NCBI GenBank assembly: GCA_016841525.1
Contig: JAENYZ010000002.1
Coordinates: forward strand, 82,078-146,077
DNA: 64,000 nucleotides
DNA from: Anaerolineaceae bacterium
GTDB taxonomy: Bacteria > Chloroflexota > Anaerolineae > Anaerolineales > Anaerolineaceae
Reading direction: 5' to 3'
Within the stretch, counting starts at the first letter, position 1; every line of letters begins with the position of its first letter. Of this stretch, positions 27,251 to 49,183 are shown piece by piece. Made by a program: the position numbers and the translations under genes. The notes beneath the pieces are model-generated. The model was not told the origin of the DNA. It was given only the letters and a program-made list of their open reading frames with translations, and did not search any database.

Positions 27251-28645
27251 CTAAGGTTTAAACCAGTCTAAAAAGATGGCCTTATAACGCAGGATGAAGG
27301 TCAATGGACCGGTGACAAAATAAAGGCCTAAGATGACAAACAAAATGGGGATGCGGATGCGTTTTATGGGGATTGACAGCAGGACCTTTGTGAGAGCGAT
27401 ATAAGCGATGGTAATCACCGGGAAGATATAGCGCCCCTGCAGGGCAATGGTTCTGAACCCGAAGGTCAGCTCAAAATCGTAATTTTTCAAGAACAGGGTC
27501 AAACCATAAAAAACCAGGATGCCCAAAAAGCTGAGGATTTTGAGGTTGAAATCCCGATAAAAAAGGATGGCAATCAGCAGGACGCTGTAGAACAGGACCA
27601 TGTGTGCGATTTGCACCGTTTGAGGATAGTAGGTGCGAAAACCCAAAATGCCGTAAATGCGCATGATCAGGGTTGGCAGCCACAATGTGAAGAAATAGCG
27701 GATTGGGTCTGGATAACCCTGCCGGATGCTTTCAATGAGTGTCAATTTCTGTTCCAGGCCAATGCTTTCCAAACGCACCTCAAACACGCTCAGGGCACAT
27801 TGTTCTTGCGTCAGGATCGATTCGCAGGGCGGCAGGATGGCTTGATGTTTGACCAGGTTGACGCCGTAGATCGCCAGGTTGCCGGCAGCCAGCAGGGTAA
27901 ACAGGGTGAGCAGTGCCCATTGCGCCCATCCCTGGATTTTGATCGGGAGGATCGACTCCCGATTCTTGACCAGGAAAATGAGCCAGGCAATACCCATCGC
28001 TAATGCCAGGGGCAGGACGGTGTACTTGGTTAAGGTGCCCAGGGCGATGCTGATCATCCACGCCAGGCTGTTGGGCAGAAATGCTTTATGGTTTAATACG
28101 CGCGCCAGGAAGTACAGACCTGCCGTGCACAACAGGTTCACCAGGTTGTCGTAATTGATTCCGCCCGATATAAACACGAACATCAGCGTATTCGTCAGCA
28201 GGAAGACGGGCAGTAAGCGCCACCATTTTTGGGTGATGAATTCCTTTGAAAGGAGATAAGCAAAGCAGACCGTACCCGCCGCATACAGCACGCTGAGCAT
28301 GCGCAGGGCGTACCAGATGGGGGCTTCGGTTTGGGGCTTGAAGAGGTGCTTGAAGACGTTGATGACACTGCCGTTGATCCAGTAATAGAGGAAGGGGTTT
28401 TGCTTGATGTAAACGCCCTTGACGTAAATCGCCTCAACATTGTCTTCGGGGATGCCCAGGGTGGTGGCAAAGTGCTTGGATAAATTATAGTGGACCGTAC
28501 CGTCGGGGATGATGCCGCCCTTGAGGTTCAGGGCGAGATAGGTGGCGTAGGCGATAAAGATGGTGAGGAGCAGGAGAAAGAGGATTGTTTCGCCGTGAGA
28601 GTGCCAGAGTTTTTTTAGTTTTGTCTTGTTGGTTCCGTTTTCCAT
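27251..28645 (-). CDS. Polytopic membrane glycosyltransferase-like protein (GT-C type)
   Basis: This 464-residue protein has about eleven hydrophobic segments after a short basic N-terminus. The first outer loop contains GGIIPDGTVHYNLSKHF with acidic and histidine residues where GT-C (PMT/ArnT-like) enzymes bind a polyprenyl-phosphate sugar and metal. Another loop has IKQNPFLYYWINGSVINVF. It resembles DUF2142/GT39-like proteins, but I cannot assign a donor or acceptor. It is convergent with the flippase-like gene (23 bp between stops) and has its own upstream region to 28893. Confidence 0.7.
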   Translation of the reverse strand: MENGTNKTKLKKLWHSHGETILFLLLLTIFIAYATYLALNLKGGIIPDGTVHYNLSKHFATTLGIPEDNVEAIYVKGVYIKQNPFLYYWINGSVINVFKHLFKPQTEAPIWYALRMLSVLYAAGTVCFAYLLSKEFITQKWWRLLPVFLLTNTLMFVFISGGINYDNLVNLLCTAGLYFLARVLNHKAFLPNSLAWMISIALGTLTKYTVLPLALAMGIAWLIFLVKNRESILPIKIQGWAQWALLTLFTLLAAGNLAIYGVNLVKHQAILPPCESILTQEQCALSVFEVRLESIGLEQKLTLIESIRQGYPDPIRYFFTLWLPTLIMRIYGILGFRTYYPQTVQIAHMVLFYSVLLIAILFYRDFNLKILSFLGILVFYGLTLFLKNYDFELTFGFRTIALQGRYIFPVITIAYIALTKVLLSIPIKRIRIPILFVILGLYFVTGPLTFILRYKAIFLDWFKP

Positions 28646-28893
28646 TTTAAGGGCCTGATGATCTTGTGCGGGCGGGTTAGGACTTGCTTTATCTGTTAAA
28701 ATATTATCATAACTGCATTTAGGTATTATACAGATTATTTGGCTCAGTTTGATGGATTGGGTATCACCATGCTGATAAGCGCTGATATAGTTTATAATTT
28801 TGTTGATGACTAAGTTTTACTTAAATAAGATGATTTCAAGAACGGACTACCACATCGCAAGGAAATTGTTTAATTATGAAAGAGGTTGATTAA

Positions 28894-30660
28894 TTGTTTG
28901 TCACTTTAAGAAATTATTTGAAGACCGAATACTTTTTTCCAAACGTTCTTGTGCCGTTAATAGCATTAGCTTTATGTGGTGTTTCATTTTTGTTATTTAT
29001 TTCTCGTTACCTTACAACGGGAGTAAGTTATTTTTTTATTCTATTTTTTCTTAAATATTTGATGTACCTCATCTCAGGTTTAGTTATCACTCATTTTTTA
29101 TATTATCTAATTTTTTTGCGAAATAAACAGGATAAAACAAAATTTCCACATACTAACAAAAAATTTTTCTTCAACGATTTTATTCTTTTATTGCTCCCAT
29201 TAATTCCAGTTGTTCAATATATTTTCAATAATCTTGAAATTGTAGGTTTTCAAGAATCATTGAAGGTCTTGATCATTTTTGTTTTATTGTCAATTTTATA
29301 TATTTATATTATCCCACTTATATTTAGTAAATTTGGGTCAATGCGGACAATGATGTCAGTTGGTTTGTCTTTTGCTTTTACAATAACAAGTATGCCGGCG
29401 TTAAGTAAAATCTTTGGTTGGTATCTTCAGGGGAATTTTCTTATTCAATTGGTTTATTTCCTAATAGTTATTTTTATCATCTGGACATTATTTAGTGAAA
29501 AAACTAAAAAGATACTTTACATTGTTATTCTTATAAACTTTGTGATTAGCAGTATTTCGCCTTTTGTTTCACAAAAAGTAGAATTTGTCCCCAGCGATAT
29601 TACAAATTCATATGAAAACCATCCATTAGTATCGTCCATTGATGGAAGAATTCCTTTGGTTTCACCAAATATTTATTTTCTTGTTTATGAATCGTATGTG
29701 CCAAAGGAAACGATGTTAGGTTATGGCATTGACAATAGCATACAAGAAGATTATTTACGGAATCAAAGTTTTAAAATCTATCCAAACATTTATACAGTCG
29801 GCTCTCCAACAGTTGAATCTATGAGTAGAGTATTTAACGCATCAGTCAATTTTTATGGTTATGGGGTAAGAGGGATTTCAGGAGATGGATTACTACACAA
29901 TTTACTAAAGGATTTTGGATATAAAACGATAGGCTTATTTCCTGATTATTATATGTTTCAAGGTGTTGGATCCAATTATAATGTATCTTATCCTGAAACA
30001 AAGGATAATGAACTTAGTTCAAGTGCAAGGTTTTCTCTGGCAATATTATCGGGAGAATTTAGAGATAAATTAGTGATAAAGGGTGAAAATCCTTCACATC
30101 AACAATATTTTGAAGCAAAACAGAAAATATTTAATGAAATTAACGGAGATCAGGTTTTTCTATACACACATTCCGATTTACCTGGTCATGCTAAAGGTTT
30201 ATGGGGTTGTCTCCCGAATGAAAAGGCTTCTTATGAGGAAGATTTAAAAAGTGCAAATCTTGAGATGAGACAAGATGTGAACAGCATTATTGAAAACGAC
30301 CCTGCAGCAATAATAATAATCGCTGGTGATCATGGTCCGTATCTTACAAAAAATTGTTTCAAGACTTCAGAGGATTATAATATTTCAGAAATTGATCGTT
30401 TGGATATCCAGGATCGCTTCTCGAGCTTTCTGGCAATCAGATGGCCTGCAGAAGATTATGAAAAGTTTGATGAGATTTCTATATTGCAAGATCTGTTTCC
30501 GGCAATATTTGCATATATGTTCAAAGATGAAACGATATTGGAAGCAAAAATCAAACCTGAGATATTGACTACAGAAGTAATTTGCGGAGCAACTGTCAAG
30601 AATGGCATCATTAATGGTGGTATTAACGATGGAGAGCCTCTTTTCCTGTTTGAAAATTAA
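28894..30660 (+). CDS. Membrane sulfatase / phosphotransferase-like protein, paralogue 1
   Basis: The start is TTG 28894, with AGAGG about 10 bases upstream. Roughly seven transmembrane helices (to about residue 230) precede an outer catalytic domain of the alkaline phosphatase superfamily. Expected metal ligands are Glu266 (FLVYESYVP) and Asp479-His480 (IIAGDHGPYL). The likely nucleophile is Thr306 in GSPTVESMSRVFN, at the place of Thr in LtaS/EptA-like enzymes. Further marks are YTHSDLPGHA and RLDIQDRFSSFLAIRWP. Such enzymes move phosphoglycerol, phosphoethanolamine or sulfate groups on surface polymers; the substrate is unknown. The gene is very AT-rich. A paralogue lies at 32390. Confidence 0.78.
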   Translation: MFVTLRNYLKTEYFFPNVLVPLIALALCGVSFLLFISRYLTTGVSYFFILFFLKYLMYLISGLVITHFLYYLIFLRNKQDKTKFPHTNKKFFFNDFILLLLPLIPVVQYIFNNLEIVGFQESLKVLIIFVLLSILYIYIIPLIFSKFGSMRTMMSVGLSFAFTITSMPALSKIFGWYLQGNFLIQLVYFLIVIFIIWTLFSEKTKKILYIVILINFVISSISPFVSQKVEFVPSDITNSYENHPLVSSIDGRIPLVSPNIYFLVYESYVPKETMLGYGIDNSIQEDYLRNQSFKIYPNIYTVGSPTVESMSRVFNASVNFYGYGVRGISGDGLLHNLLKDFGYKTIGLFPDYYMFQGVGSNYNVSYPETKDNELSSSARFSLAILSGEFRDKLVIKGENPSHQQYFEAKQKIFNEINGDQVFLYTHSDLPGHAKGLWGCLPNEKASYEEDLKSANLEMRQDVNSIIENDPAAIIIIAGDHGPYLTKNCFKTSEDYNISEIDRLDIQDRFSSFLAIRWPAEDYEKFDEISILQDLFPAIFAYMFKDETILEAKIKPEILTTEVICGATVKNGIINGGINDGEPLFLFEN

Positions 30661-30734
30661 TTAATTATTATTACAAATATTTTTTGAATTAGACTTTATG
30701 TAGAACAAAGCAATTTTTAAGGGAGAATAATTAA

Positions 30735-32120
30735 ATGAATCAAGATGTTTCAGAGTTTTCATCTTTTCGTGATCCAAGCGGATTTTTATTTAAATCTGAA
30801 GGCATTCTCTTTCGACAAATCAATAATTCTTATAAAGACGATTATGAACATTTGATGTCTTCGGGGCTTTATGATGATTTAATTAAACAGGGCTTAATGG
30901 TGCTCCATGAAGAGGTTTTGTATATTTCAGCACCTCAGCCATCAACGGCTTATAAAATTATCAAACCACAGGAAGTTGATTTTATTTCTTATCCTTATGA
31001 GTGGTGTCTTCTTCAATTTAGGGGAGCTGCGCTGACGACCTTAAGAATTGCTAAGCTAGCGCTTGACCACGGTATGATATTGAAGGATGCCAGCGCTTAT
31101 AATATCCAGTTTCATAGAGGGCGGTGGTGTTTGATTGATACTCTTTCCTTTGAGAGATATGAAGAAGGCAAACCCTGGGTCGCCTATAAACAATTTTGCC
31201 AGCATTTCCTGGCACCAATGGCAATCATGGCGTACAAAGATATTCGATTAGGATTGATGAGCCGTTTATTCATCGATGGCATCCCGCTTGATGTTGCCTC
31301 TAAATTAATGCCTTTCCACTCAAAGTTTCGTTTTGGATTACTTACACACCTCTATCTGCACGCCCGAAGCCAAAAGCGGTATGCGGATAAGGCGGTCAGT
31401 GAAGACATGAAGAGTGGAAAATTTAATCAGCAATCTATGTTAAAGCTCTTTGAAAGCCTTCGTCAAACCGTCAAATCATTGAATACAAAATTGGATGGAA
31501 CCGAGTGGGCGAACTATTATGAAAGTACAAATTATTCCGAAAAAGCCTTCGAAGAAAAGAAGGCGATTGTTGAAAGTTTTATCGACTTGGTGAAACCCAA
31601 TACGGTTTGGGATTTAGGTGCCAATATTGGTGAATTTAGCCGAATTGCAAGCAAAAAGGGCATTTATACCATCGCCTTTGATATTGACCCGGGTGCTGTG
31701 GCGAAAAATTATATTCAGGTGAGGCAAGATCGTGATATGTATCAATTGCCGTTGATCATGGATTTAACCAACCCTTCACCTGCTTTGGGTTGGGCACATC
31801 AAGAGCGGAAAGCATTGGTGGAACGCGGCCCGGTTGACATGGTGCTGGCATTGGCGCTGATTCATCACCTGGCAATCTCAAACAACCTTCCATTTGAGAA
31901 AATCGCAAAGTTTTTGGAGAAAATATGTAAGTATTTAATCATCGAATTTATCCCAAAATCAGATTCACAGGTGGCGAAATTATTAAAATCGAGAGAAGAC
32001 ATATTTAACGACTATAATATTATCAGTTTTGAAAGCGTTTTTGCACAATGTTTTGAGATATTAAAAAAACATGCAATTCCAGGTTCGGGCCGAATAGTTT
32101 ATTTGATGAGAATCAAATAG
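30735..32120 (+). CDS. Kinase-like / SAM methyltransferase fusion protein
   Basis: ATG 30735 follows GGGAG. The N-terminal part (about 1-230) has a kinase-like catalytic loop: LKDASAYNIQF, where D and N are five apart as in D-x4-N, then CLIDTLSFE, where the Asp matches the DFG position; both lie near residues 117-140. The C-terminal part (about 250-461) is a class I methyltransferase with VWDLGANIGEFSRIA (about 290-305), FDIDPGA, and LALIHHLAIS. Cytoplasmic; no membrane segment. Kinase and methyltransferase pairs cap polysaccharide chains in WbdD, though with the opposite domain order; a similar role here is inferred. It is less AT-rich than the flanking sulfatase-like genes. Confidence 0.75.
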   Translation: MNQDVSEFSSFRDPSGFLFKSEGILFRQINNSYKDDYEHLMSSGLYDDLIKQGLMVLHEEVLYISAPQPSTAYKIIKPQEVDFISYPYEWCLLQFRGAALTTLRIAKLALDHGMILKDASAYNIQFHRGRWCLIDTLSFERYEEGKPWVAYKQFCQHFLAPMAIMAYKDIRLGLMSRLFIDGIPLDVASKLMPFHSKFRFGLLTHLYLHARSQKRYADKAVSEDMKSGKFNQQSMLKLFESLRQTVKSLNTKLDGTEWANYYESTNYSEKAFEEKKAIVESFIDLVKPNTVWDLGANIGEFSRIASKKGIYTIAFDIDPGAVAKNYIQVRQDRDMYQLPLIMDLTNPSPALGWAHQERKALVERGPVDMVLALALIHHLAISNNLPFEKIAKFLEKICKYLIIEFIPKSDSQVAKLLKSREDIFNDYNIISFESVFAQCFEILKKHAIPGSGRIVYLMRIK

Positions 32121-32152
32121 TTTTTTTGTTGGAAAGAATAAAAGGAGATTTT

Positions 32153-32383
32153 ATGAACTCAAATATATTTTTTAGACCGCTGCTGTACCTTGACCCGGGA
32201 ACGGGTAGTTTCATCATCCAAATATTGCTGGCTGGTCTATTAGGCATTGGCGTGGCAGTAAAAGTGTATTGGAAGAAGATCGTGTCTTTCTTTAAGGGGA
32301 ATAAAGAAGACAGTAACCTCGATCGTTTGGATGAAATTGACGAATATGGCGGTGATCCAAAAATTTCTAATGTTGATGGTTGA
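32153..32383 (+). CDS. Small membrane protein with YLDPGTGS motif
   Basis: I chose ATG 32153 because AAGGAG lies 6 bases upstream; an upstream TTG 32126 lacks one. The 76-residue protein has LLYLDPGTGSFIIQ before a single hydrophobic helix (LLAGLLGIGVAVKVYW), then a basic patch and an acidic tail (DRLDEIDEYGGDP). Small proteins with this motif are widespread and, as far as I recall, often lie by polysaccharide or methyltransferase genes, but I know no function. It sits between the kinase/methyltransferase gene (32 bp) and the second sulfatase-like gene (6 bp), so all three are probably co-transcribed. Confidence 0.72.
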   Translation: MNSNIFFRPLLYLDPGTGSFIIQILLAGLLGIGVAVKVYWKKIVSFFKGNKEDSNLDRLDEIDEYGGDPKISNVDG

Positions 32384-32389
32384 TAAATC

Positions 32390-34171
32390 ATGTGTGATAA
32401 ATATCTAGAGGAGGGTTATCGTTATGGGAAAAGGATTGAAAAATTCCTAAAACTTGAACATTTTATACCAAATGTACTTATACCTTTATTAATCTTAGCA
32501 GTTTACAGCGGCTCTTTTACTATCATTTACGTTAAATATATTACTGAAGGAATAAATAGCATATTTTCAGGCGCATTATTTATTCTTTTATTACCTTTTA
32601 TAATAAGCTTGCTAATAATTTATTTACTATTTTTTATCAATAAAAAATTAATAAAGGGTGAAAACATTTCGTTTGAACTTTCTTTGAAAAAGTCATGGGA
32701 TGTCAATCTTCTTCTACTAGTATTGCCCCTAACACCTGTTATTCAATATTTATTAAATAATCTTGACATCTTATCTTGGGTGGACAGACTACTAATAGTG
32801 TTTTTCTTTGTAATGTTTTGCGGACTATATATTTACGTGTTCCCGTTTGTGTTTAGAAAAATCAGTCCAATTCGAACTTCAACTGCAATAGGCCTGGCTT
32901 TTGTTACTACTATTACAAGCATGCCATCATTGATTCAAGAATTTAATTGGTATGTAGAATCAAAAATTTACATTCCTTTAGTTTTTTTTGCTGGGATATT
33001 AATATTTACATGGATTCTGTACAACACAAAATTCAAGAAGGTGTGTTATATTTTTATGGTGATTAACTTAATAGTTAACAGTTCTATTCAATTATTTTCT
33101 AAGGACGGCGGCAATAAACTCAATACCCCCACTGCTGACTTTGAGGAAAACAAATTATCGTCATTAACCAATGATAGGTTGCCTCCCAAAACCCCAAACA
33201 TTTATTTTCTTATTTATGAATCTTATGTGCCAAATGAAACGATGCGAGGATATGGTATCGATAACAGCGCACAAGAGGAATACTTGCGAGAACAGGGTTT
33301 CGTTATATATCCAAACGTTTACTCAGTTGGATCACCTTCGATAGAATCTTTGAGCAGGGTATTTAATGTTTCTACAGAGTTTTATGGTAAAAAAAGGAGA
33401 TCTGTTTCAGGTGATGGGGTGGTACAGAACATTCTCAGAAATTTCGGTTATAAAACATTTGGAATTTCTGCAAATGACTGGATATTTTTGGGTACGGGAT
33501 CAAGCTACGATTATTCGTTCCCAGAGACTGAAAATTTGGCTTCCTATGAACTTTTATCCTTAGCGATATTACATGGCGAGTTAAGTTTTGACCTGATATT
33601 TGAAGATGTTTCCCACGAGCAATATATTGAAACAAAACAGAGTTATCTTCGAATGAATTTTACTAATCCGGTTTTATTTTATTCACATTCTGATTTTCCT
33701 GGACACTCAACAATGGCATGTAGCCCAGATGAAATAAATTTATATGAAGAAGATCTTTTAGTCGCTAATCATGAAATGGAACAAGATATCAAAACAATTA
33801 AAGAAATGGACCCGGGTGCAATCATTGTAATTGCCGGTGACCACGGGCCTTACCTGACAAAAAGTTGTTTTAAAACCGGTAGAGATTATGATATCTCTGA
33901 AATATCGCGTTTGGATATTCAGGATCGATTTGCTACATTCTTAGCGATCAGGTGGCCAACGATAGAATATAAAAATTTCGATGATATCGTTGTTTTACAG
34001 GATTTATTTCCAGTAATATTTACTTACATTTTTGATGATGGTAAAATTTTGGAGTCAAAAATTGAGCAAGATATAATAGACACTTATCAGATAAGTGGGG
34101 TTACTGTAAAAAATGGACTCATTTATGGAGGCATTAATGATGGTGAGCCTCTTTTTCTGATTAAAAAATAA
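32390..34171 (+). CDS. Membrane sulfatase / phosphotransferase-like protein, paralogue 2
   Basis: It is a 593-residue paralogue of the protein at 28894, with the same membrane part and the same outer domain order. Glu277 (FLIYESYVP), Asp484-His485 (VIAGDHGPYL), and YSHSDFPGHS are kept. The expected nucleophile position is Ser317 (GSPSIESLSRVFN) instead of Thr. The two proteins match over long stretches, such as RLDIQDRF and FLAIRWP, and over the C-terminal GGINDGEPLFL. The difference suggests either changed chemistry or simple Ser/Thr exchange. Very AT-rich, like its partner. It follows the small YLDPGTGS gene by 6 bp. Confidence 0.78.
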   Translation: MCDKYLEEGYRYGKRIEKFLKLEHFIPNVLIPLLILAVYSGSFTIIYVKYITEGINSIFSGALFILLLPFIISLLIIYLLFFINKKLIKGENISFELSLKKSWDVNLLLLVLPLTPVIQYLLNNLDILSWVDRLLIVFFFVMFCGLYIYVFPFVFRKISPIRTSTAIGLAFVTTITSMPSLIQEFNWYVESKIYIPLVFFAGILIFTWILYNTKFKKVCYIFMVINLIVNSSIQLFSKDGGNKLNTPTADFEENKLSSLTNDRLPPKTPNIYFLIYESYVPNETMRGYGIDNSAQEEYLREQGFVIYPNVYSVGSPSIESLSRVFNVSTEFYGKKRRSVSGDGVVQNILRNFGYKTFGISANDWIFLGTGSSYDYSFPETENLASYELLSLAILHGELSFDLIFEDVSHEQYIETKQSYLRMNFTNPVLFYSHSDFPGHSTMACSPDEINLYEEDLLVANHEMEQDIKTIKEMDPGAIIVIAGDHGPYLTKSCFKTGRDYDISEISRLDIQDRFATFLAIRWPTIEYKNFDDIVVLQDLFPVIFTYIFDDGKILESKIEQDIIDTYQISGVTVKNGLIYGGINDGEPLFLIKK

Positions 34172-34579
34172 AAATCAAAAAATAATTGACCTTAACCATA
34201 ATTAATTCAAGAGAGTATTTTTGATGAAATTAGAAGCATAAATCTTTATAAGGATTTTGATAAATATTCTTCATTGTTAAAATTTGATCTTGAAAGGTAA
34301 GGTACTCATAATAAACATTTTTGCAAATAGTGCATTAGAAGTATTAATCTGTAATATTTTTATAAATCAATTTCGACCCTAATTCATTTTACACAGCTCG
34401 AATAGCTTCTCTTGAGATAAAAAAATACCAGGGTAATTCCATGTTATCTAAAAACGATTTCCAAACCTTGTTGGTAAGTTTATCTTTTTGTGAGTGGGAA
34501 ATTTCACGAACAAGGAGGGGGTTAACAATTAAAAATTTACGGTTTTGGGGGTTGAATGGTATTTACTAAGGTAGAGCTT
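34172..34579. other. AT-rich intergenic stretch, no gene
   Basis: The stretch is AT-rich with no gene above 40 codons. A 32-codon open stretch at 34206-34304 (words FDEIRSINLYKDF) looks protein-like but has no start or ribosome site. No terminator with a clear stem is seen after the sulfatase-like gene. Confidence 0.5.
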
Positions 34580-34703
34580 TACAACAGTCTTTCAAGGCTG
34601 TTCCTGCTGGACCGGAGGTGGGGAAACTGTGCTAACGCTGTTCTCCTGGTTCCTGATGCTGTCGGAGTGGAAATGGGTAGGTTTGAAGTCCAAAAGTATT
34701 TGA
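34580..34703 (+). pseudogene. Remnant of a flippase-like gene (C-terminal end)
   Basis: Frame one (34580-34618) reads LSRLFLLDR; after a frame change, 34626-34703 reads TVLTLFSWFLMLSEWKWVGLK and ends in TGA. The intact protein at 26277-27227 ends QLALLDRGVTMLTLFFWF then IVLSGWK, so this is a shifted, truncated copy of the same family's C-terminus. The rest of the gene is not recognisable. It marks a past deletion or insertion within the AT-rich island. Confidence 0.7.
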
Positions 34704-34880
34704 CATTTTGTCATATGGGTTTATGCAGTTGATCCTTTGTGATACATTTTTAATCTTCAATAATGAAATTGAGATTTGTTGATATAATTAAATTTGTTAT
34801 TTTTATTTCCAGATGGGAAATTTTGAAAAAATTTATTTCTTTATTGAGTTACTAGAAATATATTTCAATTTTAAAATCTT

Positions 34881-36116
34881 ATGAAAAAGAAGACAAAACT
34901 TTTTTTAAAACGCTTAAAATTAGCATTTATTACCTTATTCGAATCTCCATGGAAGGCTTCCTTAACTGCGGGACTTATTTTTATTACTGTTTCATTAGTA
35001 ACAGGGAAAATCTTTCAACAATCTGATTACCCATATTTCAATTATCTAGCGGATGCTTTTCTACACGGACAAACTTGGTTAAGACGGATTCCACCCTTAA
35101 CAAAAGATTTGTCGTTTTTTAATGGCAGGTATTACTTATACTGGGGGCCTTTTCCAGCAATTATGCTAATTCCATTTGTGGCGGTATTTGGTGTCCAATT
35201 CAATGATGTTTTATTTACAATCATGATAGGCATGTTAAATGTTGGACTTGTGGCATATCTATTACGAGTTACTTGCCGAGTTGGATTATTGAGACTTACA
35301 GAAACTCAACGAGCTATTTTATCTTTTTTCTTCGCATTGGGTACTGTTCATTTCACACTTCCACCTTTTGGCAAGGTGTGGATGACAGCGTCATTAATTG
35401 GTTTTACTTGTACACTATTAGCTTATTTAGCGGTGTTCACACTTAAAGGCTACAAAGCCTGGTTTTACACAGGCTTAGCTTTGTCAGGAGCAATGTTAAC
35501 TCGAAGTAATCTGGTATTCACTGGATTATTCCCGTTGATCTACCTTCTTTATCAGCAAAAACCTTTGAATAAGCGGGTAATTTTCAATATTTTTTTAGGG
35601 GGATTACCATTAATCTTGTCTTTGGGTTCTTTTCTTTTTTACAATCACATTCGGTTTGGTAGTCCATTTGATATTGGTGTGAATTATAACGTTATGCATA
35701 ATTTTTATCAAGCTGATTTTAAACGGTATGGTGTTTTTAATTTTCATTATATGCCGGTTAATATATATTATCAATATGTTTTTTATCCATTCCCGATTCG
35801 TCAAGAGAGTCTCATGGGTGGCAGCCTTTTCCTTCTGAGCCCTTTATTTTTTAGCTCATTTTTTGCTTTATGGAAACCACGCAATAAACTATATATTGCG
35901 GGATTATGTATGTCAATCCTTATCACCAATATTCCCATCATTTTGATAATCGGAACTGGATGGACACAATTTGGCCCTCGCTACACGCTTGATTTTACTG
36001 TTCCCCTCCTTCTTTTGACTGGATTAGGTGTTGAAAAATGGAATTCTAGAATATTATTTATTCTTGCAGTTATTTCAATTTTTCATTATTTAATTGGCGT
36101 TATATTATGTATGTGA
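34881..36116 (+). CDS. Polytopic GT-C type membrane protein
   Basis: This 411-residue, very AT-rich gene encodes about ten hydrophobic segments after a basic N-terminus. The first loop has DYPYFNYLADAFLHGQTWL and later FNGRYYLYWGPFPAIM, where GT-C glycosyltransferases carry their acidic and aromatic sugar-lipid site. It is probably a polyprenyl-phosphate-sugar-dependent transferase acting at the outer face of the membrane. Its substrate is unknown. The start, ATG 34881, has no strong ribosome site. It forms a block with the similar gene downstream. Confidence 0.65.
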   Translation: MKKKTKLFLKRLKLAFITLFESPWKASLTAGLIFITVSLVTGKIFQQSDYPYFNYLADAFLHGQTWLRRIPPLTKDLSFFNGRYYLYWGPFPAIMLIPFVAVFGVQFNDVLFTIMIGMLNVGLVAYLLRVTCRVGLLRLTETQRAILSFFFALGTVHFTLPPFGKVWMTASLIGFTCTLLAYLAVFTLKGYKAWFYTGLALSGAMLTRSNLVFTGLFPLIYLLYQQKPLNKRVIFNIFLGGLPLILSLGSFLFYNHIRFGSPFDIGVNYNVMHNFYQADFKRYGVFNFHYMPVNIYYQYVFYPFPIRQESLMGGSLFLLSPLFFSSFFALWKPRNKLYIAGLCMSILITNIPIILIIGTGWTQFGPRYTLDFTVPLLLLTGLGVEKWNSRILFILAVISIFHYLIGVILCM

Positions 36117-36299
36117 TATCTTATATTCAAATAATAAATGGAACAGTATTTTTTTCATAACCGAGGGTTGAATAAATATAAACACTGTTTGATCTATTGT
36201 TCAATGTGGGTTCTTGAAATTAGGAAATTTATTTGCATAATTCTTTTATAAAATTGATATTTTTCCTTACGAATTAATAGAGAGAAAAGGCTAAATAAA

Positions 36300-37847
36300 T
36301 TGAAGCAATTATCTTTTGAAAAAGAAAATTTAAATAAAATTGATTTGCTGGTTATTATTATCTGTTTGTTGATTGCTTTTTTCTTTTTGTTGATTGCTAC
36401 AAAATCATCCCCCTTATATCCCTTTAACGATTGGGCAGATGCAAATATATCCTTCACCATGGGCAAAGGGATGATGAATGGAAAAATCCCATATCGTGAC
36501 CTCTTTGACCATAAGGGGCCTTTATTTTATATCATATTTGGCCTTGCGTATCTAATCTCAAATGAGACATTCCTTTGTGTTTTTATTTTTGAAGTCCTCT
36601 CATTCTCAATTTTCTTATTTTTCTCTTTTAAGTTGATTAATCTTTATCTGAAAACTAAATATGCAATTATTACACTCCCAATATTGGCTGCCTCTATTGT
36701 CAATTTAAGCAATTTCACCCATGGCGGTAGCGTGGAACAATTTTGTCTTCCTTTGCTTACAATAAGCCTTTATCACCTCTTTGATTATTTTGAGAACAGT
36801 TACCCATATCCTATATCAAACAAAATTGTCTTGATCAATGGTGTAATAGCAGGATGTATATTATGGATCAAATTTTCATTATTAGGTTTTTGGTTTGGAT
36901 GGATAGCAGCGATATTCATTGGCATGTTCGCTAAACAAGAGGTTGTTCGGGCAATAAAAGCGATGTTTGTTTTTTTACTTGGCATTCTTATAGCAACTCT
37001 ACCGTGGCTCATTTACTTTGGTTCTAACCATGCAATTTTTGATTTGCTAAATGCTTACTTTATGTTTAATATAAGAAGTTACTCTATGGATTTTTCAATG
37101 ATATCGATATTAAAATCCACCTTCGTCGGTATTTTGGCTTCTCTCCCTGAAAATCCTGTTTCTATAGGCCTTATGTATTTTGGCATGATCATATTCTTGA
37201 CTTATAAAAAATTTACAAACAATATTTTTCTCAAATTAGGTCTATCGTTATGCTTTTTTTCCCTTGCTTTAAGCGTTTACGGCGGTGGGCGGCAATATGT
37301 TTATTATTTTTTGATTTTCTCACCTTTTATTTTTTTGGGATTCATTGCCATCTTTAATATTGTGATTGACGAAATAGGTAAATTAAAATCTAACAGGTTG
37401 TTTTTTATAATTTTATTTATTACTTTGTTCGTGACATTTTCTTATACCCGGTTATTTCATCACAATACATATATGATTGGCGTGAAAAAAGAAGATTTGG
37501 TCCAATATAAGTATGCAGCAATCATCAATCAAATAGAAAGCCCTTCCTTATTAAATTACGGTGGATTGGATCATGGATTCTATACAACGACGGGCATCGT
37601 GCCGAATATCCGATTTTTTCATTATCCGAATATTGCCTACTCAAGATATCCGATCATTTTAGATGAACAAAACAGGTATATCAAAGAGCAGGTTGTGGAT
37701 TATGTCGTTTTCCAGGTGCCAACGGATTATAGTGGTGATTTTAAAATCCCACTTCTTGATGAAAATTATCATTTAATTGGTCGAGAAAAACAAAAAAATG
37801 AAGATAATGAATTCTATTATTTTCTATATAAGAAAAACCCAGATTAA
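36300..37847 (+). CDS. Polytopic GT-C type membrane protein
   Basis: TTG 36300 is the start, with AAGG 9 bases upstream. This 515-residue protein has about eleven hydrophobic segments. Its first outer loop, FNDWADANISFTMGKGMMNG then IPYRDLFDHKGPLFY, is the pattern of acidic and R-D-x-[FL] residues seen in many PMT-like GT-C enzymes. The C-terminal 130 residues form a soluble outer part. Very AT-rich, like its neighbours. It is convergent with the next, minus-strand gene (30 bp between stops). Donor and acceptor are unknown. Confidence 0.68.
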   Translation: MKQLSFEKENLNKIDLLVIIICLLIAFFFLLIATKSSPLYPFNDWADANISFTMGKGMMNGKIPYRDLFDHKGPLFYIIFGLAYLISNETFLCVFIFEVLSFSIFLFFSFKLINLYLKTKYAIITLPILAASIVNLSNFTHGGSVEQFCLPLLTISLYHLFDYFENSYPYPISNKIVLINGVIAGCILWIKFSLLGFWFGWIAAIFIGMFAKQEVVRAIKAMFVFLLGILIATLPWLIYFGSNHAIFDLLNAYFMFNIRSYSMDFSMISILKSTFVGILASLPENPVSIGLMYFGMIIFLTYKKFTNNIFLKLGLSLCFFSLALSVYGGGRQYVYYFLIFSPFIFLGFIAIFNIVIDEIGKLKSNRLFFIILFITLFVTFSYTRLFHHNTYMIGVKKEDLVQYKYAAIINQIESPSLLNYGGLDHGFYTTTGIVPNIRFFHYPNIAYSRYPIILDEQNRYIKEQVVDYVVFQVPTDYSGDFKIPLLDENYHLIGREKQKNEDNEFYYFLYKKNPD

Positions 37848-37877
37848 GGCTTGGCTTCTATATCTAAAATTACTGTG

Positions 37878-39407
37878 CTAGTTTAATCGTAGAATCACCG
37901 CAATATCATCTTCATATTGGGTTTCCCATCCCAATTCCAGCTGGATTGCCTCTGCGGCAAGTTCATTTGATGGCAAAATTGCCCAATCCACGCCGTATTC
38001 TTTGATAATATCTTCCCAGCCTTCTTGAACACTGATGACCCGGGCGTATTTGCGTACAAAATCCTCACCGTAGAAATCACTTTTGCTGTCGATAAATACC
38101 CGCTTTCCAGGCCAAAGCCGATATTCAAGATATCCTCCCCAGGTGAAGAAATTAAACATTTCCCCTTCCTGTGGATTTTTCTCCAGCCAATCAACAGCCT
38201 CCACAGGAAATATATTAGGATCAACCGCATATCCAAGACCTTCAGAATCAAATCGATAGCCCATAGATAATCCCAGTATGGTTACAAAAACAATTAATAC
38301 CGGCCATAAAAATCCTTTAAGCGTTTTATCTGTTGTTTGGATCCGATTTTCTAAGGTTTGAAATTTCTTGATGAACTCAAACCTGTCAGCGAATTGCTCT
38401 ACTAAATCAGCCAAGCCGCATGCGAGGAGGGGAGCAGCCACAATTGCGAACAACGGGATATTTCTTCCACTGTAAAGACCCATCACCAGCCAGGCAGCAC
38501 CATTGAAAAGTAATCCCGAGTCAGGCTTATTCTTTTGTTTTCCCAATAACACGATCAATAAAGCGACATAAATTAAAAAGGGCCAGGTACTGACCATATG
38601 AAAATTCGGTGAATTAAACTCCTGTGTGAAATCTGCTAGATATTGATTCCCAACATGACTGATAATCTTTCGCCATAGACCTATCCCAGAGGGGTTGATT
38701 AGAGAAACCAAGAAAGATATGAGCCCACTTTGGAAGTAATAACGCCAAAAATGGGAATCAAACGCCTGATCCTTTTTATTTTTATTCAACAAGGTGTCCC
38801 AACCAGCACCAAACCCATATATAATCCAGGTGATAAAACCGATTATAAAACCGCCGTGCATATTGACCCAAACCAGCATCAGCACTGGCATCACCCACCA
38901 AAGGCTGTATTTTCTCTGGCTTAATCGATCCAGCAGCAGCATCCACAAAGCAAGGAAAAAGAATGTAAACATATGGGGGCGCGCAATCCAGTGCACAAAG
39001 GAAGTCATTATCACAAACACAACAACGAACAACGAAAGCAGGATCCTTTGTGACTTTTGATACAGGTGATTATATAAGACCCAAAATGCAGTTGCAACCA
39101 CCAATGCAAAAAGAAGGATAATGCCCTTAAAGCCAAAAAGGTTCTTGACAAGTACGAGTATAACGGATGACAACCACTCATGCTGTATGACGGGTTGTCC
39201 TGTCATCGTGTGGGAGAACACATCCCGCAATGGGATTTCCCCATTATTAATGATGAATTTGCCCAGGTTCAGATGGAGGAATAAATCCCCGTCAGCATTG
39301 AGCATCCGTTGTCCACGGGATAAAACAAGGAAGAAGGTAACGATCCAAAGAAGATTGCCAAAGGTGGGCACTAAATAATAGATCAGTTTTGATATTTTTT
39401 TATCCAT
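37878..39407 (-). CDS. Membrane glycosyltransferase-like protein, paralogue A
   Basis: This 509-residue protein has about eleven hydrophobic segments. The N-terminal loop reads NADGDLFLHLNLGKFI then IPLRDVFSHTM, an extended GT-C-like acid/His motif, and continues QPVIQHEWLSSVI. The C-terminal outer domain has FNFFTWGGYLEYRLWPG and RVFIDSKSDFYGEDFV. It is a close paralogue of the protein at 41645-43168; the two flank a DPM synthase-like gene and a GT87-like gene. The family probably uses a polyprenyl-phosphate sugar, but no substrate is known. Confidence 0.72.
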   Translation of the reverse strand: MDKKISKLIYYLVPTFGNLLWIVTFFLVLSRGQRMLNADGDLFLHLNLGKFIINNGEIPLRDVFSHTMTGQPVIQHEWLSSVILVLVKNLFGFKGIILLFALVVATAFWVLYNHLYQKSQRILLSLFVVVFVIMTSFVHWIARPHMFTFFFLALWMLLLDRLSQRKYSLWWVMPVLMLVWVNMHGGFIIGFITWIIYGFGAGWDTLLNKNKKDQAFDSHFWRYYFQSGLISFLVSLINPSGIGLWRKIISHVGNQYLADFTQEFNSPNFHMVSTWPFLIYVALLIVLLGKQKNKPDSGLLFNGAAWLVMGLYSGRNIPLFAIVAAPLLACGLADLVEQFADRFEFIKKFQTLENRIQTTDKTLKGFLWPVLIVFVTILGLSMGYRFDSEGLGYAVDPNIFPVEAVDWLEKNPQEGEMFNFFTWGGYLEYRLWPGKRVFIDSKSDFYGEDFVRKYARVISVQEGWEDIIKEYGVDWAILPSNELAAEAIQLELGWETQYEDDIAVILRLN

Positions 39408-39428
39408 AGAAATTATTGAACTATTTAA

Positions 39429-40154
39429 TTATCTACTTTTTATGTGATTATTTTTATTGCGTAATTGCCAGACGCGATAGGCTGCCTCGAGCTGAATAGT
39501 TATCGACATTTTTGAAGTTCCACGGGTTCGTTCTGCAAAATAGATTGGTACTTCCTTGAATCTTAATCCTGCCAGTTTAGCCAAATAATTCAATTCCACT
39601 TGAAATACATAACCGCTGGAACATGTATTTTCAAAGGGTATGGCTTCAAGGGCTGAGCGACGCCATAATCGAAATCCGCCCGTTACATCTTTGATGGGTA
39701 AATTTAAAATTGTGCGGGCGTAAAGGTTTCCAAACCATGAAAGCGCTTTCCGATAAAATGCCCAATCTTTGTCCACACTGCCACCAGGTGTGTATCTTGA
39801 ACCAATAACCACATCCGCTTGATCCAGCTTTTCAATCATGATTGGCAGTCGATCAGGCGGGTGGCTAAAATCAGCATCCATCATCCCGATCACATCTGCA
39901 CCCTGGTCCAAAGCACATCGAAAGCCATCGATGTATGCTTTTCCTAACCCTTCTTTACCATGCCTATGGATAACCCTTAACTTTCTGTGGTGTTCTTGTG
40001 CCAATCTATCTGCTAATTTCCCGGTCCCGTCCGGGCTGTTATCATCCACAATAAGAATATTAAAGTTGTCCACTGGGAGAGAGAACAACGCAGACACAAG
40101 AATGGGTAGATTCTCAACTTCATTATAGGTAGGGATGATCTGAATTATTTTCAT
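39429..40154 (-). CDS. Polyprenol-phosphate mannose synthase-like GT2
   Basis: This 241-residue protein closely matches dolichol/polyprenol-phosphate mannosyltransferase (DPM1) features: IIPTYNEVENLP at the start, ILIVDDNSPDGTG, MMDADFSHPP with Asp93 and Asp95, VIGSRYTPGGSV, KDVTGGFRLWRR and YFAERTRGTSKM. No C-terminal membrane helix is seen, as in short DPM1 forms. It makes the polyprenyl-phosphate sugar at the cytoplasmic face that the GT-C proteins around it would use. It is 21 bp from paralogue A and probably co-transcribed with it. Confidence 0.9.
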   Translation of the reverse strand: MKIIQIIPTYNEVENLPILVSALFSLPVDNFNILIVDDNSPDGTGKLADRLAQEHHRKLRVIHRHGKEGLGKAYIDGFRCALDQGADVIGMMDADFSHPPDRLPIMIEKLDQADVVIGSRYTPGGSVDKDWAFYRKALSWFGNLYARTILNLPIKDVTGGFRLWRRSALEAIPFENTCSSGYVFQVELNYLAKLAGLRFKEVPIYFAERTRGTSKMSITIQLEAAYRVWQLRNKNNHIKSR

Positions 40155-40248
40155 AAGATCTCTGTAGCTAAAGTCGCTGTTGTCAGGATTGATCCAGCAA
40201 AAATTTTACCATGTTTGCTGATTTTACATTTGTATTGATTGGATGACG

Positions 40249-41568
40249 TCAAATTTTATTTTTATAAGTATCGTTTGACCAAGTATTATTTTTTTGCGTT
40301 TCATTTTCTTCTTTGTCAGTATGTTTTATTGTCCAAATGAGTAATATCAAATTCAATAAAAATGAGGGAAATCCTCTAATAAACCAACTAAGACTGAGAA
40401 TTTCGATTTTCACATTTCCAAAGAAAATGACAGAAATAACAATGTAACCAATCAAGTGGAAGAAAACTGGAAAAAACACCCAGGATGAGAACAGCGACTT
40501 ATTGAAGCGATTTTTTTCTAATAAAAAAACCATCGGCGGAATTAATACGATTGACATATGTACGTGTGCATGCCATGTGACGAGCATTGTCGCTGCAAAT
40601 ACCCCGAGTATTTCAATAATCTTTATTGATGATCCTGATGCAAAACCTTTTCTAAAGAAATAGAATGTGGCGAATATCGTTAATATCGAGCCAATGATGA
40701 TGATGCTCCAACCAATGACGTCGGAGGTTGTTGAAGAGATATGCCAACCCAGCATACGCCAATTCATCATCGCTCCTGGATTGCTGGTTGCACCTCCTCC
40801 GGCAGATTCGAAAATGATGTTGAATAACTTAATTAAGCCTTCCCACTTAATTAAAAAGAAGGAAACTAAAAGGATCGCCAGTGTAGACAGACTGAAGCCC
40901 ATTAAACTTTTTATAGAGCGTTTAAGCAGCAAAAAAGGAAGGATCAAAAGAAGAATTTGAGGTTTCAATAACCAGCCTCCCAACCACAAGCCAGCTTTTA
41001 TGTGTTTATTGGAGAGGATCGCCCTGATGAATTCGCCTGCGCAAATGAGTAACCAGACATTCACCTGGCCTTCTTGAAAATTAATAAACACTGGTAGGGA
41101 CAGCAACAGCATTGTGAAATGTCTGAGATGCAAAGGTTTCTCGCTCACTTTTTCAATAAAGAATTTTAAGTATAGAATCAGCCCAACAAAATTGACCAAC
41201 GTCCACAGCAAAAAACTCGCAGGAAGATTAATAGATGCAACGACTTTAAAGGGGATCAAAAATATGGGCAGATAGGGTACTTCGATAGGTTTAAAAAACT
41301 CTAACAGTTTATCCTCTATGTTATAGGTGTCTTTTTGGAATTGTGCCAGGAGATCCAGGTCATAAGCATCAGTAAAACCAGCCTGGTTCATTAATTTACC
41401 CGCACTCCAATAAGCACAGTAATCAAAGGCGTAATCCTTGCAGATCGTGCCATTTATGGCAAAAAAACCGATTTGAATGATGTAGAAAGTAAGGGCTGCG
41501 GCCAATGCCAGGTTTTGCCAACCTTTGGGTTTCATATTTGTAAATGGTAAACGCAACTTTTTCCTCAT
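40249..41568 (-). CDS. GT87-like mannosyltransferase membrane protein (DUF2029)
   Basis: ATG 41568 follows GGAGGG. This 439-residue protein has about ten hydrophobic segments and the GT87/DUF2029 start pattern: CKDYAFDYCAYWSAGKLMNQ, then DAYDLDLLAQFQ and PYLPIFLIPF. GT87 enzymes use polyprenyl-phosphate mannose to add mannose to surface glycolipids or polymers, with the acidic D-x-x-Y-Y-type loop at the outer face. Here the loop has an extra Cys pair. The DPM synthase-like gene lies 94 bp downstream on the same strand, consistent with supply of the donor. Confidence 0.8.
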   Translation of the reverse strand: MRKKLRLPFTNMKPKGWQNLALAAALTFYIIQIGFFAINGTICKDYAFDYCAYWSAGKLMNQAGFTDAYDLDLLAQFQKDTYNIEDKLLEFFKPIEVPYLPIFLIPFKVVASINLPASFLLWTLVNFVGLILYLKFFIEKVSEKPLHLRHFTMLLLSLPVFINFQEGQVNVWLLICAGEFIRAILSNKHIKAGLWLGGWLLKPQILLLILPFLLLKRSIKSLMGFSLSTLAILLVSFFLIKWEGLIKLFNIIFESAGGGATSNPGAMMNWRMLGWHISSTTSDVIGWSIIIIGSILTIFATFYFFRKGFASGSSIKIIEILGVFAATMLVTWHAHVHMSIVLIPPMVFLLEKNRFNKSLFSSWVFFPVFFHLIGYIVISVIFFGNVKIEILSLSWFIRGFPSFLLNLILLIWTIKHTDKEENETQKNNTWSNDTYKNKI

Positions 41569-41644
41569 CCAACCCTCCGTATGTGATAAAACAAAGATCT
41601 CTAAAACTGAAAACTGAGCTGCTCTTCAATCAATTACAATGCTC

Positions 41645-43168
41645 TCAGCGTTTTCTAAGAATGATGGCTGTTCCATCTTGATAAATAGTTTCCCATTCTA
41701 CTTCCGACTGAATTGCCCGCACAGCAGCTTCGTTTGCTGGCAAAATCGCCCAATTGACATCGTATTGGTCAAGGACATTCTCCCAACCTTCTTGCTGGAG
41801 GATGACCTTACCATATTGGCGTACGAAATCTTCGCCGAAAAAATCACTTTTACTGTCGATGAAAACACGGTATTCAGGCCACAGTCGATATTCGAGATAT
41901 CCACCCCAGGTGAAGTAATTAAACATCTCCCCATCTTGAGGGTGCTCTTCCAACCATTCCACAGCTTCAATTGGAAAAACTTCGGGGTCAAATGCATAGC
42001 CCTGCCCCTCAAGATCAAATCGAAATCCCAGTATGAGCCCAATAATGGCAACCCCAATACTTAATGCCGGCCAGAAATACCCTTTTAGATGCTGATCCAA
42101 AGTTTTCATCCGCAAATCGAGATTATTGAGCGCAGTCAGCAATTTTGCATTTGAATTTGCTAGTAAATTATCCATTCCCCTGGCAAGAAGCGGTGCAGCG
42201 ATTATAACAAACAGGGGGATATTGCGTCTGCTGTAAAGCCCCATCATCAACCAGGCGATGGTATTGAACAGCAATGGGGTGTCTGGTTTTCTTCTGCTAA
42301 AACCTAAAACGAAAATCAATAAAGCAATAAAGATTAAAAAGGGCCAATAGGTGACGTCATGAAAATCTGGCGATAAAAATTCATGGGTGACATTCGCCAG
42401 AAATTTGTTCCCGACGTGACCAACAACTGTTTTCCATAACCCAAAGCCGGAGGGATTAATAAGGGATGTTAGAAACGACGTAACTCCCCCAAGCGCGAAA
42501 TATTTCCAGAAGTGAGAGGGAAGTTTTTCTCCCTCTTGCAATTTATGGTAAACGAGATCCCAAGCGATACCAATACCATAAATGAACCAGGTGATGAATC
42601 CGACAATGAAGCCGCCATGTAAATTAACCCAGAACAGCATCAGAAGGGGCAGAAGCCACCAGCGATGTGATTTTCCCTTATACAATTGGTCCAATACCAT
42701 CATCCATATCGTCAGCAGGAGGAAGGTTATGATATGCGGACGTGCAAGCCAGTGACTCATAGAATTTGCTAATACAAGTAAAGCAACAATCAATACCGGC
42801 AAAAGGGTTGTGCGGCTATTACGTAAACGTCTGTAAATCAGAAAAATTGTCACCCCAATGATCAATGCACATAAGAATATAATCCCGTCCAGGTCAAATA
42901 TTTTATTGATAAATGCAAAGATGACAGTTGTCAGCCACTCATGCTGGGTCACTGGCTGCCCCGGCATGGTATGAGAGAAAACATCTCGCAAGGGTATTTT
43001 TCCGGTGTCAAGAATGTAATGACCCAGGTTGAGGTGAAGGGCTAAATCACCATCGGCGTTGATCATGCGCCGTCCCCGGAGTAAGACCCCAAAGAAGGCA
43101 GACAACCAAAGCATATCCCCGAAGCTAGGGAGAAAATAGGATAACAGTCCTGGTGGCTTATTTTTCAT
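41645..43168 (-). CDS. Membrane glycosyltransferase-like protein, paralogue B
   Basis: This 507-residue protein is a close relative of the one at 37878-39407: NADGDLALHLNLGHYI, IPLRDVFSHTM, QPVTQHEWLTTVIF, then FNYFTWGGYLEYRLWPE and RVFIDSKSDFFGEDFV. It has about eleven hydrophobic segments and a soluble C-terminal outer domain. The shared motifs place it with the GT-C type. It heads the minus-strand block of four glycosylation genes (43168 to 37878). ATG 43168 has AGGGG upstream. The region from 43169 on is gene-free. Confidence 0.74.
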   Translation of the reverse strand: MKNKPPGLLSYFLPSFGDMLWLSAFFGVLLRGRRMINADGDLALHLNLGHYILDTGKIPLRDVFSHTMPGQPVTQHEWLTTVIFAFINKIFDLDGIIFLCALIIGVTIFLIYRRLRNSRTTLLPVLIVALLVLANSMSHWLARPHIITFLLLTIWMMVLDQLYKGKSHRWWLLPLLMLFWVNLHGGFIVGFITWFIYGIGIAWDLVYHKLQEGEKLPSHFWKYFALGGVTSFLTSLINPSGFGLWKTVVGHVGNKFLANVTHEFLSPDFHDVTYWPFLIFIALLIFVLGFSRRKPDTPLLFNTIAWLMMGLYSRRNIPLFVIIAAPLLARGMDNLLANSNAKLLTALNNLDLRMKTLDQHLKGYFWPALSIGVAIIGLILGFRFDLEGQGYAFDPEVFPIEAVEWLEEHPQDGEMFNYFTWGGYLEYRLWPEYRVFIDSKSDFFGEDFVRQYGKVILQQEGWENVLDQYDVNWAILPANEAAVRAIQSEVEWETIYQDGTAIILRKR

Positions 43169-43585
43169 TGTTACATCCCCTGAGTCTCACTTTCACAGAA
43201 ATGAATTGAAAAATTCAAACTTACAGTACCGGTCCTTCTCGATTCATATACTAGTATAAATGATTTTTAGCTTAACTCGATTTTTTCAACATAATAAATG
43301 TATTGTTGAGTGATTGAAGACATAATGTATAGTTTAAGATTTAGAATTCCTATGCAAATGGAGAATTACTAATTTTTGGAGTAACCGAAGTGTTCTCATA
43401 TCAACTCAATGAAGTGGGTAAGGGATAATTACAATTTCTTTGCAGTAAACCTGGACCTATATTTTTCAAAGGAAAAAATCTATATATAAACGCTATTAAA
43501 AAATAATTAATAAAATATATTATAAAACTTAATCTATTATTAAGTATTCCGATAAAAGGATATTAGAATTTCCTAAAATTGGGTC
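43169..43585. other. AT-rich intergenic stretch between divergent units
   Basis: The stretch separates paralogue B (minus strand) from flp (plus strand). It is AT-rich and holds no gene. Its last part leads into the strong flp promoter. Confidence 0.5.
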
Positions 43586-43614
43586 TTGACTCTTTTCACT
43601 AATCCATTTATAAT
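43586..43614 (+). promoter_or_regulatory. Strong sigma-70 promoter of flp
   Basis: TTGACT (43586-43591), a 17-bp spacer and a perfect TATAAT (43609-43614) give an almost consensus promoter. The expected transcription start is near 43621, 35 bp before the flp start. Confidence 0.85.
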
Positions 43615-43655
43615 GTTTATGTCGATAAAAATTATTTTAGAGGAGGATGAATTTC

Positions 43656-43853
43656 ATGTTATCACAATTTATGCTTTGGTTACGAACTTTTGTTACACAA
43701 GAAGAAAAGGGGCAGACGCTCATTGAGTATGGTCTGATCCTGGTTCTGATTGCGATTGTTGTGATTGTTTTGCTGACAGCAGTTGGTGGCAGTCTGAACG
43801 CAATATTCCTAAATATTTCTCAAGTTTTAGGATTTGCAGAACCTGCAGGATAA
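43656..43853 (+). CDS. flp: Flp/Fap-type major pilin
   Basis: I chose ATG 43656: AGGAGG (43641-43646) lies 9 bases away, while the ATG 43647 directly touches it. The 65-residue prepilin has a leader ending in KG (Gly19) followed by QTLIEYGLILVLIAIVV, with Glu24 at position +5 of the mature protein as required for Tad pilins. After cleavage by a prepilin peptidase, it assembles into the thin pilus used for attachment. The gene has its own strong promoter and terminator, so it can be made in excess over the assembly proteins. Confidence 0.93.
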   Translation: MLSQFMLWLRTFVTQEEKGQTLIEYGLILVLIAIVVIVLLTAVGGSLNAIFLNISQVLGFAEPAG

Positions 43854-43878
43854 ACCCTAAAACTGGTATCAATTTTCA

Positions 43879-43914
43879 AACAAAGTCTCTTTATCAGAGA
43901 CTTTGTTGGGTTTT
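43879..43914 (+). terminator. Rho-independent terminator after flp
   Basis: The stem AACAAAGTCTCT (43879-43890) / AGAGACTTTGTT (43896-43907), loop TTATC, is followed by GGGTTTT. It separates flp from the assembly genes. Confidence 0.88.
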
Positions 43915-43944
43915 AAGAAGCTTTTATTGTGTTTTTGAGAGTGT

Positions 43945-44145: not shown

Positions 44146-44148
44146 TCA

Positions 44149-45612: not shown

Positions 45613-45636
45613 TAAAAATCTGAAAGGTTGGTCAAA

Positions 45637-47040: not shown

Positions 47041-47070
47041 TCATCAGATTTATTATTGAGGAGGTTTTCT

Positions 47071-47925: not shown

Positions 47926-47937
47926 GGGAGCCAATCT

Positions 47938-49119: not shown

Positions 49120-49183
49120 TTTTTGACGGCGATAATTTATTTGCGTGATAAAGCGATTGAAGCATGAATAGGACCTTTGGACA

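Follow-up and report, generated by a model that had tools for sequence, protein, structure and literature searches.

The window analyzed here, a 64,000-nucleotide (nt) stretch of a contig from an Anaerolineaceae bacterium, contains a four-gene cassette of the already known NoeA/NoeB kind, in which the arrangement of the genes and the subfamily of the outer enzymes (AlkP, from the alkaline-phosphatase superfamily) are new. The most useful addition made by this work is a near-obligate pairing of NoeA with the gene for a tiny membrane protein bearing a YLDPGTGS motif. The noeA and noeB genes, best known from alfalfa rhizobia, were reportedly named as nodulation host-range genes by Ardourel and others in 1995. 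An earlier note, made from the sequence of the window, had called the cassette undescribed; this part of its account falls, as noeA and noeB are named nodulation genes and the family and its conserved neighbours have been published, as far as the available text of PMC9758233 goes. The four consecutive plus-strand genes described in the note at 28894-34171 were all confirmed as open reading frames:

28894-30660, plus strand: AlkP1, open reading frame of 588 amino acids (aa), start codon TTG at 28894
30735-32120, plus strand: NoeA homologue (kinase-like/methyltransferase fusion), open reading frame of 461 aa
32153-32383, plus strand: YLDPGTGS small single-pass membrane protein, open reading frame of 76 aa from the ATG at 32153
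32390-34171, plus strand: AlkP2, paralogue of AlkP1, open reading frame of 593 aa

From an alternative in-frame start, the TTG at 32126, the small protein would be 85 aa long. The genes are separated by gaps of 74, 32 and 6 nt. A scan for promoters and terminators did not rise above shuffled sequence (24 vs a mean of 29.1; 4 vs 3.7), so that the assignment of the genes to one operon is drawn from strand and spacing alone.

Judging from sequence comparison, the fusion protein is a full-length member of the NoeA kinase-methyltransferase family. It aligned with Sinorhizobium meliloti NoeA over residues 9-456 (32% identity, E = 3e-59 in tblastn), which amounts to full-length similarity. In a translated search of plasmids, the same protein matched 65 records, of which 57 are from Sinorhizobium; in 64 the match covers at least 80% of the query. 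Several of the matching S. meliloti records label the relative noeA. The protein divides into a kinase-like half (about residues 1-250) and a half resembling class I S-adenosylmethionine (SAM) methyltransferases (about 255-461), and its hydropathy maximum (1.39 against a cut-off of 1.6) predicts no transmembrane segment. Both a kinase loop and a SAM site had been read in it before, and both were recovered: at the level of motifs, the kinase-type residues D118...N123...D135 are invariant in 47 of 47 aligned rows, and the SAM site reads DLGANxG. Pfam returned only weak methyltransferase matches for this protein. In a structure model of the whole chain (predicted local distance difference test score, pLDDT, 88.7), the methyltransferase half matched the folds of ChlM (Z 18.8), MePCE (17.9), NodS (17.8), BCDIN3D (17.1) and WbdD (16.7), these top scores being nearly tied with those of many other structures. 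MePCE and BCDIN3D are, we presume, enzymes that methylate a phosphate. WbdD does so too, according to the available part of PMC3482155, which makes three of these five.

The association between NoeA and the small gene goes far beyond chance. A genome scan for NoeA yielded at least 588 candidate stretches, at least 581 of which encode a relative. The best 80 loci were kept; these are the most window-like ones and thus a biased sample. Represented among them are Chloroflexota, Zixibacteria, Omnitrophota, Aminicenantes, classes of Planctomycetota, Krumholzibacteriota, Nitrospirae, Bacteroidota, Gemmatimonadales, Myxococcota and Proteobacteria, as well as two archaea of the genus Methanoculleus; the closest relatives (63% identity) are Anaerolineaceae. 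As proposed in the earlier note, neighbours do recur across phyla, beyond the genome of the window. In 71 of the 80 loci no more than 200 nt separate the small gene from NoeA (68 upstream, 3 downstream); it is farther away in three and absent despite adequate flanking sequence in one; in the other five, with 300 nt or less upstream, its presence could not be judged.

Since the small-protein profile had been seeded from these 80 loci, two genome samples were drawn independently of them. Among 201 Chloroflexota genomes, NoeA is found in 24 (23 intact, with a broken copy in G096) and the small gene in 25 (E up to 0.001). All 24 NoeA-bearing genomes have the small gene at about 215 nt or less from NoeA, compared to a single genome (G028) with the small gene among the 177 without NoeA; G064 and G101 carry a second copy. 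The co-occurrence gives a Fisher value of 3e-30, not corrected for shared ancestry. Thirteen further Chloroflexota genomes matched profile A1 over part of the methyltransferase half only (E 3.9e-5 to 8.5e-4) and were not counted as having NoeA. The second sample comprised 349 genomes of the phylum around genome G201, which we take to be Wenzhouxiangella and its phylum Pseudomonadota. NoeA was found in seven of these (E up to 1e-10) and the small gene in ten (E up to 1e-4). The two genes share a contig and lie no more than 2 kb apart in all seven NoeA genomes, while 3 of the 342 others (G284, G316 and G321) have the small gene without NoeA. Altogether, chance proximity was rejected for the small gene. 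In a viral collection, searching with the single protein gave no match and searching with a profile gave three; the corresponding contigs (L111, L112, L113) carry a NoeA homologue with the small gene directly upstream and represent either viral cargo or host contamination.

A single copy of the small gene was found in the 3.2-Mb genome of the window. Its product has one transmembrane segment by hydropathy, with basic residues after the helix. The motif occurs in 50 of the 51 rows of the family alignment and contains no Lys or Arg, the post-helix stretch averaging 5.6 of these residues. As basic residues mark the cytoplasmic side of membrane proteins (the positive-inside rule), the YLDPGTGS motif is predicted to face outside. 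A signal-like A-x-A/G immediately precedes the motif Tyr in 34 of the 50 motif-bearing rows. No mention of the motif or its spelling variants was found in the literature.

Of the 80 loci, 45 have an AlkP gene immediately 3' of NoeA in the same orientation and ten have one at another place in the locus; four were too short for a call. The profile used was iterated on the same loci, and chance neighbours from the superfamily could have been drawn in. Around G201, six of the seven NoeA loci have an AlkP gene near NoeA, L197 being the one without. A second new observation concerns small genes found away from NoeA, of which seven were inspected: G028, the second copies of G064 and G101, G321, G316, G284, and G203 (Leptolinea), in which NoeA sits elsewhere in the genome. 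An alkaline-phosphatase-superfamily gene adjoins the small gene in five of these seven cases. In L178 and L179 the small gene is followed immediately by a type I phosphodiesterase frame, from a family that we take to be part of the superfamily; a gene matching the AlkP profile touches the small gene or lies a few bases from it in L190 (same strand) and L191 (convergent); and a divergent AlkP gene lies within about 400 nt in L180. The two weakest small-gene matches, L192 and L193, have no AlkP neighbour. Extra pairs of small gene and AlkP gene occur in L070 and L084. Positions 9404-17374 of L070 hold a minus-strand tandem array of four AlkP frames; a small gene of its own, with the motif spelled YIDPNTGG, accompanies each of two of them. 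By eye, sulfotransferase-like frames (G-L-x-R-x-G-T/S) were noticed near the off-NoeA small genes of L179, L191, L192 and L193.

The two outer enzymes of the window had been described as paralogues with complete metal ligands, and they are. AlkP1 and AlkP2 share 48-49% identity over 577-583 residues and are sisters in the tree (support 96/100), inside a divergent subfamily clade (100/99); the pair looks like the product of a duplication. The branch of S. meliloti NoeB in this tree is very long and its placement not reliable. The metal-site residues E266, T306, D479 and H480, whose ligand roles we presume by analogy with LtaS, are complete in AlkP1, and AlkP2 has Ser in place of T306. Both proteins have six transmembrane segments by hydropathy and are predicted to consist of a membrane part and an extracytoplasmic alkaline-phosphatase-superfamily domain. 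The alkaline-phosphatase fold expected in the note was recovered in a model of AlkP1 of moderate quality (pLDDT 71). Its outer domain matched YejM/PbgA (Z 22.8, root-mean-square deviation 3.4, 284 residues aligned), EptC (Z 20.1; 4.1, 283) and LtaS (Z 19.9; 4.7, 297). Sulfatases were also numerous among the fold matches (Z 18.8-20.7), so that the fold alone does not separate phospho- from sulfo-chemistry.

A third novelty is that the outer enzymes form a duplicated subfamily without a Pfam match (no family for AlkP1, none for AlkP2), found elsewhere directly after NoeA in three lineages. A profile seeded with the two window sequences gave strong matches in L054, L079 and L099 (E 1e-64 to 1e-174; L099 in two pieces), in each of which the window-type AlkP gene lies directly 3' of NoeA, and weak ones in L084, L093, L043 and L102 (E 4e-9 to 8e-6). 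NoeB was not reached by the profile of the two window seeds alone. A profile grown from these seeds without L028 reached it at E values of 0.008, 5e-10, 3e-12 and 6e-14 in successive rounds, the match mostly spanning NoeB residues 340-490 and including a DHG motif. AlkP profile A2 found three places in the genome of the window: the window pair, and one gene on another contig (E 1e-6), which is the only Pfam Sulfatase match of this genome. Searching the 201 Chloroflexota genomes with AlkP2 returned its own genome only, plus a marginal match in G101 (E 7.5e-4).

We propose, at a probability of roughly 0.55, that the module formed by NoeA, the small protein and a NoeB-type enzyme is a two-sided machine that decorates a glycan, secreted or on the cell surface, or else the lipid that carries it. 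In the cytoplasm, NoeA would phosphorylate a hydroxyl of a glycan precursor (or lipid-linked sugar) and then methylate the phosphorylated precursor; as in WbdD, the methyl group would most simply go onto the phosphate. The membrane-anchored AlkP enzymes, with their active site outside, would act on the product after its export, transferring a phospho-group or taking one off by means of the metal and the Thr/Ser nucleophile. The YLDPGTGS protein, its basic tail inside and its motif outside, would join the two sides as membrane partner of both NoeA and AlkP. This scheme builds on homology, gene association, the predicted folds of the methyltransferase and AlkP, active-site residues and topology from hydropathy; from these we infer the kinase activity, the substrate, the methyl-phosphate chemistry, the direction of the outer reaction and the partner role of the small protein. 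The cassette might cap a glycan end, as suggested in the earlier note.

Several observations weigh against this reading. Some concern the first step: a Pfam kinase match is absent from all 43 NoeA family members scanned, and comparisons with profiles made of 19 and 24 known kinases were not significant (P 0.014 and 0.043; probability 3% and 1%), D118, N123 and D135 being in register with the catalytic Asp, the Asn and the DFG-type Asp of kinases in both of these non-significant alignments. The 50 fold matches listed for the whole-protein query mainly cover residues 255-461; that they include no kinase match to the N-terminal half does not speak against a kinase fold there. Nor do the fold matches of the methyltransferase half point to phosphate in particular as the acceptor, and in the literature examined, parts of papers included, no biochemistry of NoeA or NoeB and no chemistry assigned to them was found. 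Others concern the outer step. No AlkP gene was detected, at the threshold used, in 21 of the 80 loci, each of these 21 having at least 1500 nt downstream. In genome G192, from the same genus as the window, NoeA and the small gene are present; the flanks of 3.4 and 4.7 kb show no AlkP gene, and the genome as a whole gives no AlkP2 match. In L032, a near relative, the 8 kb to each side of NoeA hold no AlkP gene. On a plain reading, AlkP1 and AlkP2 are a patchy pair, possibly transferred, which weighs against one fixed four-gene unit. The earlier proposal of a recurring module is supported; as the closest relatives lack an AlkP gene next to NoeA, AlkP1 and AlkP2 may be its chance neighbours. Lastly, a topoisomerase I gene with DUF5679 lies directly upstream of the small gene-NoeA pair in three Anaerolineae loci (L059, L074 and L097).

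The small genes lacking a nearby NoeA suggest a different core, made up of the small protein and the AlkP enzyme. The small protein might control or hold AlkP, itself a phosphoglycerol- or phosphoethanolamine-type transferase, with NoeA as an add-on that prepares or modifies the acceptor. The five of seven orphan cases beside an AlkP-superfamily gene, the extra pairs in L070 and L084 and the closeness of the AlkP1 fold to LtaS, EptC and PbgA all argue for this possible, if tentative, account; it sits poorly with the small gene occurring almost only alongside NoeA in the Chloroflexota sample, with the 21 loci devoid of AlkP and with the two orphans having no AlkP neighbour. The target might instead be a membrane lipid or the polyprenyl carrier, NoeA making a (methyl)phospho form inside and the AlkPs serving as outside phosphatases in recycling. 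Membrane-embedded enzymes with a phospho-enzyme type of site, and loci adjoining non-glycan genes such as the topoisomerase, would fit such a role. We regard it as unlikely: among neighbour families, glycosyltransferase family 2 is the most frequent (albeit at 5 of 107 frames), and the S. meliloti copy adjoins nodL, in an operon that the available text of PMC9758233 connects with the modification of Nod factors. Under a further idea, which we consider a long shot, the YLDPGTGS peptide, exposed just outside the membrane, would itself be the acceptor: NoeA would prepare a phospho-glycan, and AlkP would link it to the conserved Ser/Thr or Asp of the peptide. If this were true, surface glycan would be anchored in the membrane by the tiny protein, a new type of attachment common to bacteria and archaea.

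The remaining alternative, a true formylglycine (FGly)-type sulfatase or a sulfo-transfer step outside, is disfavoured on motif grounds and seems highly improbable. The best sequence-profile matches of the outer enzyme in the PDB are mostly sulfatases, as are many of its fold matches; Pfam Sulfatase matched 30 of 40 aligned NoeA-neighbour AlkP enzymes; and the sulfotransferase-like frames mentioned above lie near some orphan small genes. Pfam Sulfatase is a superfamily-wide model that covers LtaS-type enzymes too, and neither window enzyme matches it. FGly-type sulfatases carry the nucleophile signature C/S-x-P-x-R. This is absent from both window enzymes, where Thr/Ser is followed by V/I-E-S. 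In the 40 rows, the nucleophile column holds Thr in 37, Ser in 3 and Cys in none, and the metal-ligand columns hold Asp in 38 and Glu in 2, Asp in all 40, and His in 36. These residues favour phospho-chemistry. The term sulfatase-like thus suits the fold of the window enzymes and not their motifs or Pfam status; likewise, of the phospho- or sulfo-group transfer first suggested, the former agrees with a phosphotransferase-type metal site with Thr/Ser and the latter is unlikely.

A glycan context of NoeA loci is present and not general. Glycosyltransferase family 2 leads the neighbour families in the 107 of 194 neighbour frames that were scanned. L032, with NoeA and the small gene, and L190, with the small gene and AlkP, lie amid genes that we read as NeuA/NeuB-like and that presumably serve nonulosonic acids. 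Near the window cassette, Pfam identified glycosyltransferase family 2 (twice), GT87, a polysaccharide pyruvyl transferase and an LPG-synthase transmembrane protein; a PMT-like match fell below the Pfam cut-off. The G+C content is 32-42% over 28-46 kb of the window, against mostly 44-55% in the flanks. This AT-rich segment (28000-46000), possibly acquired by transfer, contains the cassette and several membrane glycosyltransferase-like genes. Past the glycan genes, at 45628-54389, lie genes resembling those of Tad/type II secretion pili (Tad, SAF, AAA_31, T2SSF twice, T2SSE).

Finding noeA and noeB in a module that spans many bacterial phyla and methanogens makes what was a peculiarity of rhizobia a broad question of surface chemistry, one that can be tested in a laboratory strain, and the near-obligate tiny partner belongs to this module well beyond rhizobia. 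In S. meliloti ml47, the order is nodL, an unnamed gene for a 71-residue protein carrying AYLDPGTGS, noeA and noeB, compared to AlkP1-NoeA-small gene-AlkP2 in the window. The pSymA nodL-noeA-noeB region shares with the cassette full-length NoeA homology, a YLDPGTGS small gene and an adjacent membrane enzyme of AlkP fold; NoeB itself bears only a distant resemblance to the window AlkPs. In the portions of the papers available, the S. meliloti noeA operon is linked to Nod factor modification (PMC9758233), and a strain failing to nodulate 17 of 27 Medicago genotypes has a truncated noeA (PMC4053727). This kinase-methyltransferase family was described in the 2022 Legionella kinome study (PMC9758233), whose available text reports about 2000 homologues of Lani_1194 with a conserved kinase active site and a methyltransferase domain in 94%. 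Among 816 neighbourhoods, Lani_1193 is found in 65% and Lani_1195 in 38%; the family is linked to NoeA, and NoeB and Lani_1195 have a predicted alkaline phosphatase fold. Lani_1193 is probably the YLDPGTGS protein. The same text makes no mention of the motif, of the near-obligate pairing or of the AlkP subfamily of the window.

WbdD of Escherichia coli O9a, which adds a phosphate to the terminal mannose and goes on to methylate it (PMC3482155, available part), likewise combines a kinase and a SAM methyltransferase in one chain. The methyltransferase is N-terminal in WbdD and C-terminal in the window NoeA (model residues 252-461 on WbdD 7-211), and the NoeA model ends in a strand, lacking the C-terminal coiled coil of WbdD. 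Orthology with WbdD is ruled out by this reversed domain order. For the outer enzymes, the nearest known systems are LtaS, EptA-C and PbgA (YejM). At 9-13% identity to the window AlkP in aligned rows these are distant in sequence, but they share a transmembrane part with an AlkP domain outside (Z about 19-23), and the Asp/Glu, Thr, Asp and His ligands of the LtaS/EptA type are matched in AlkP1 and, with Ser for Thr, in AlkP2.

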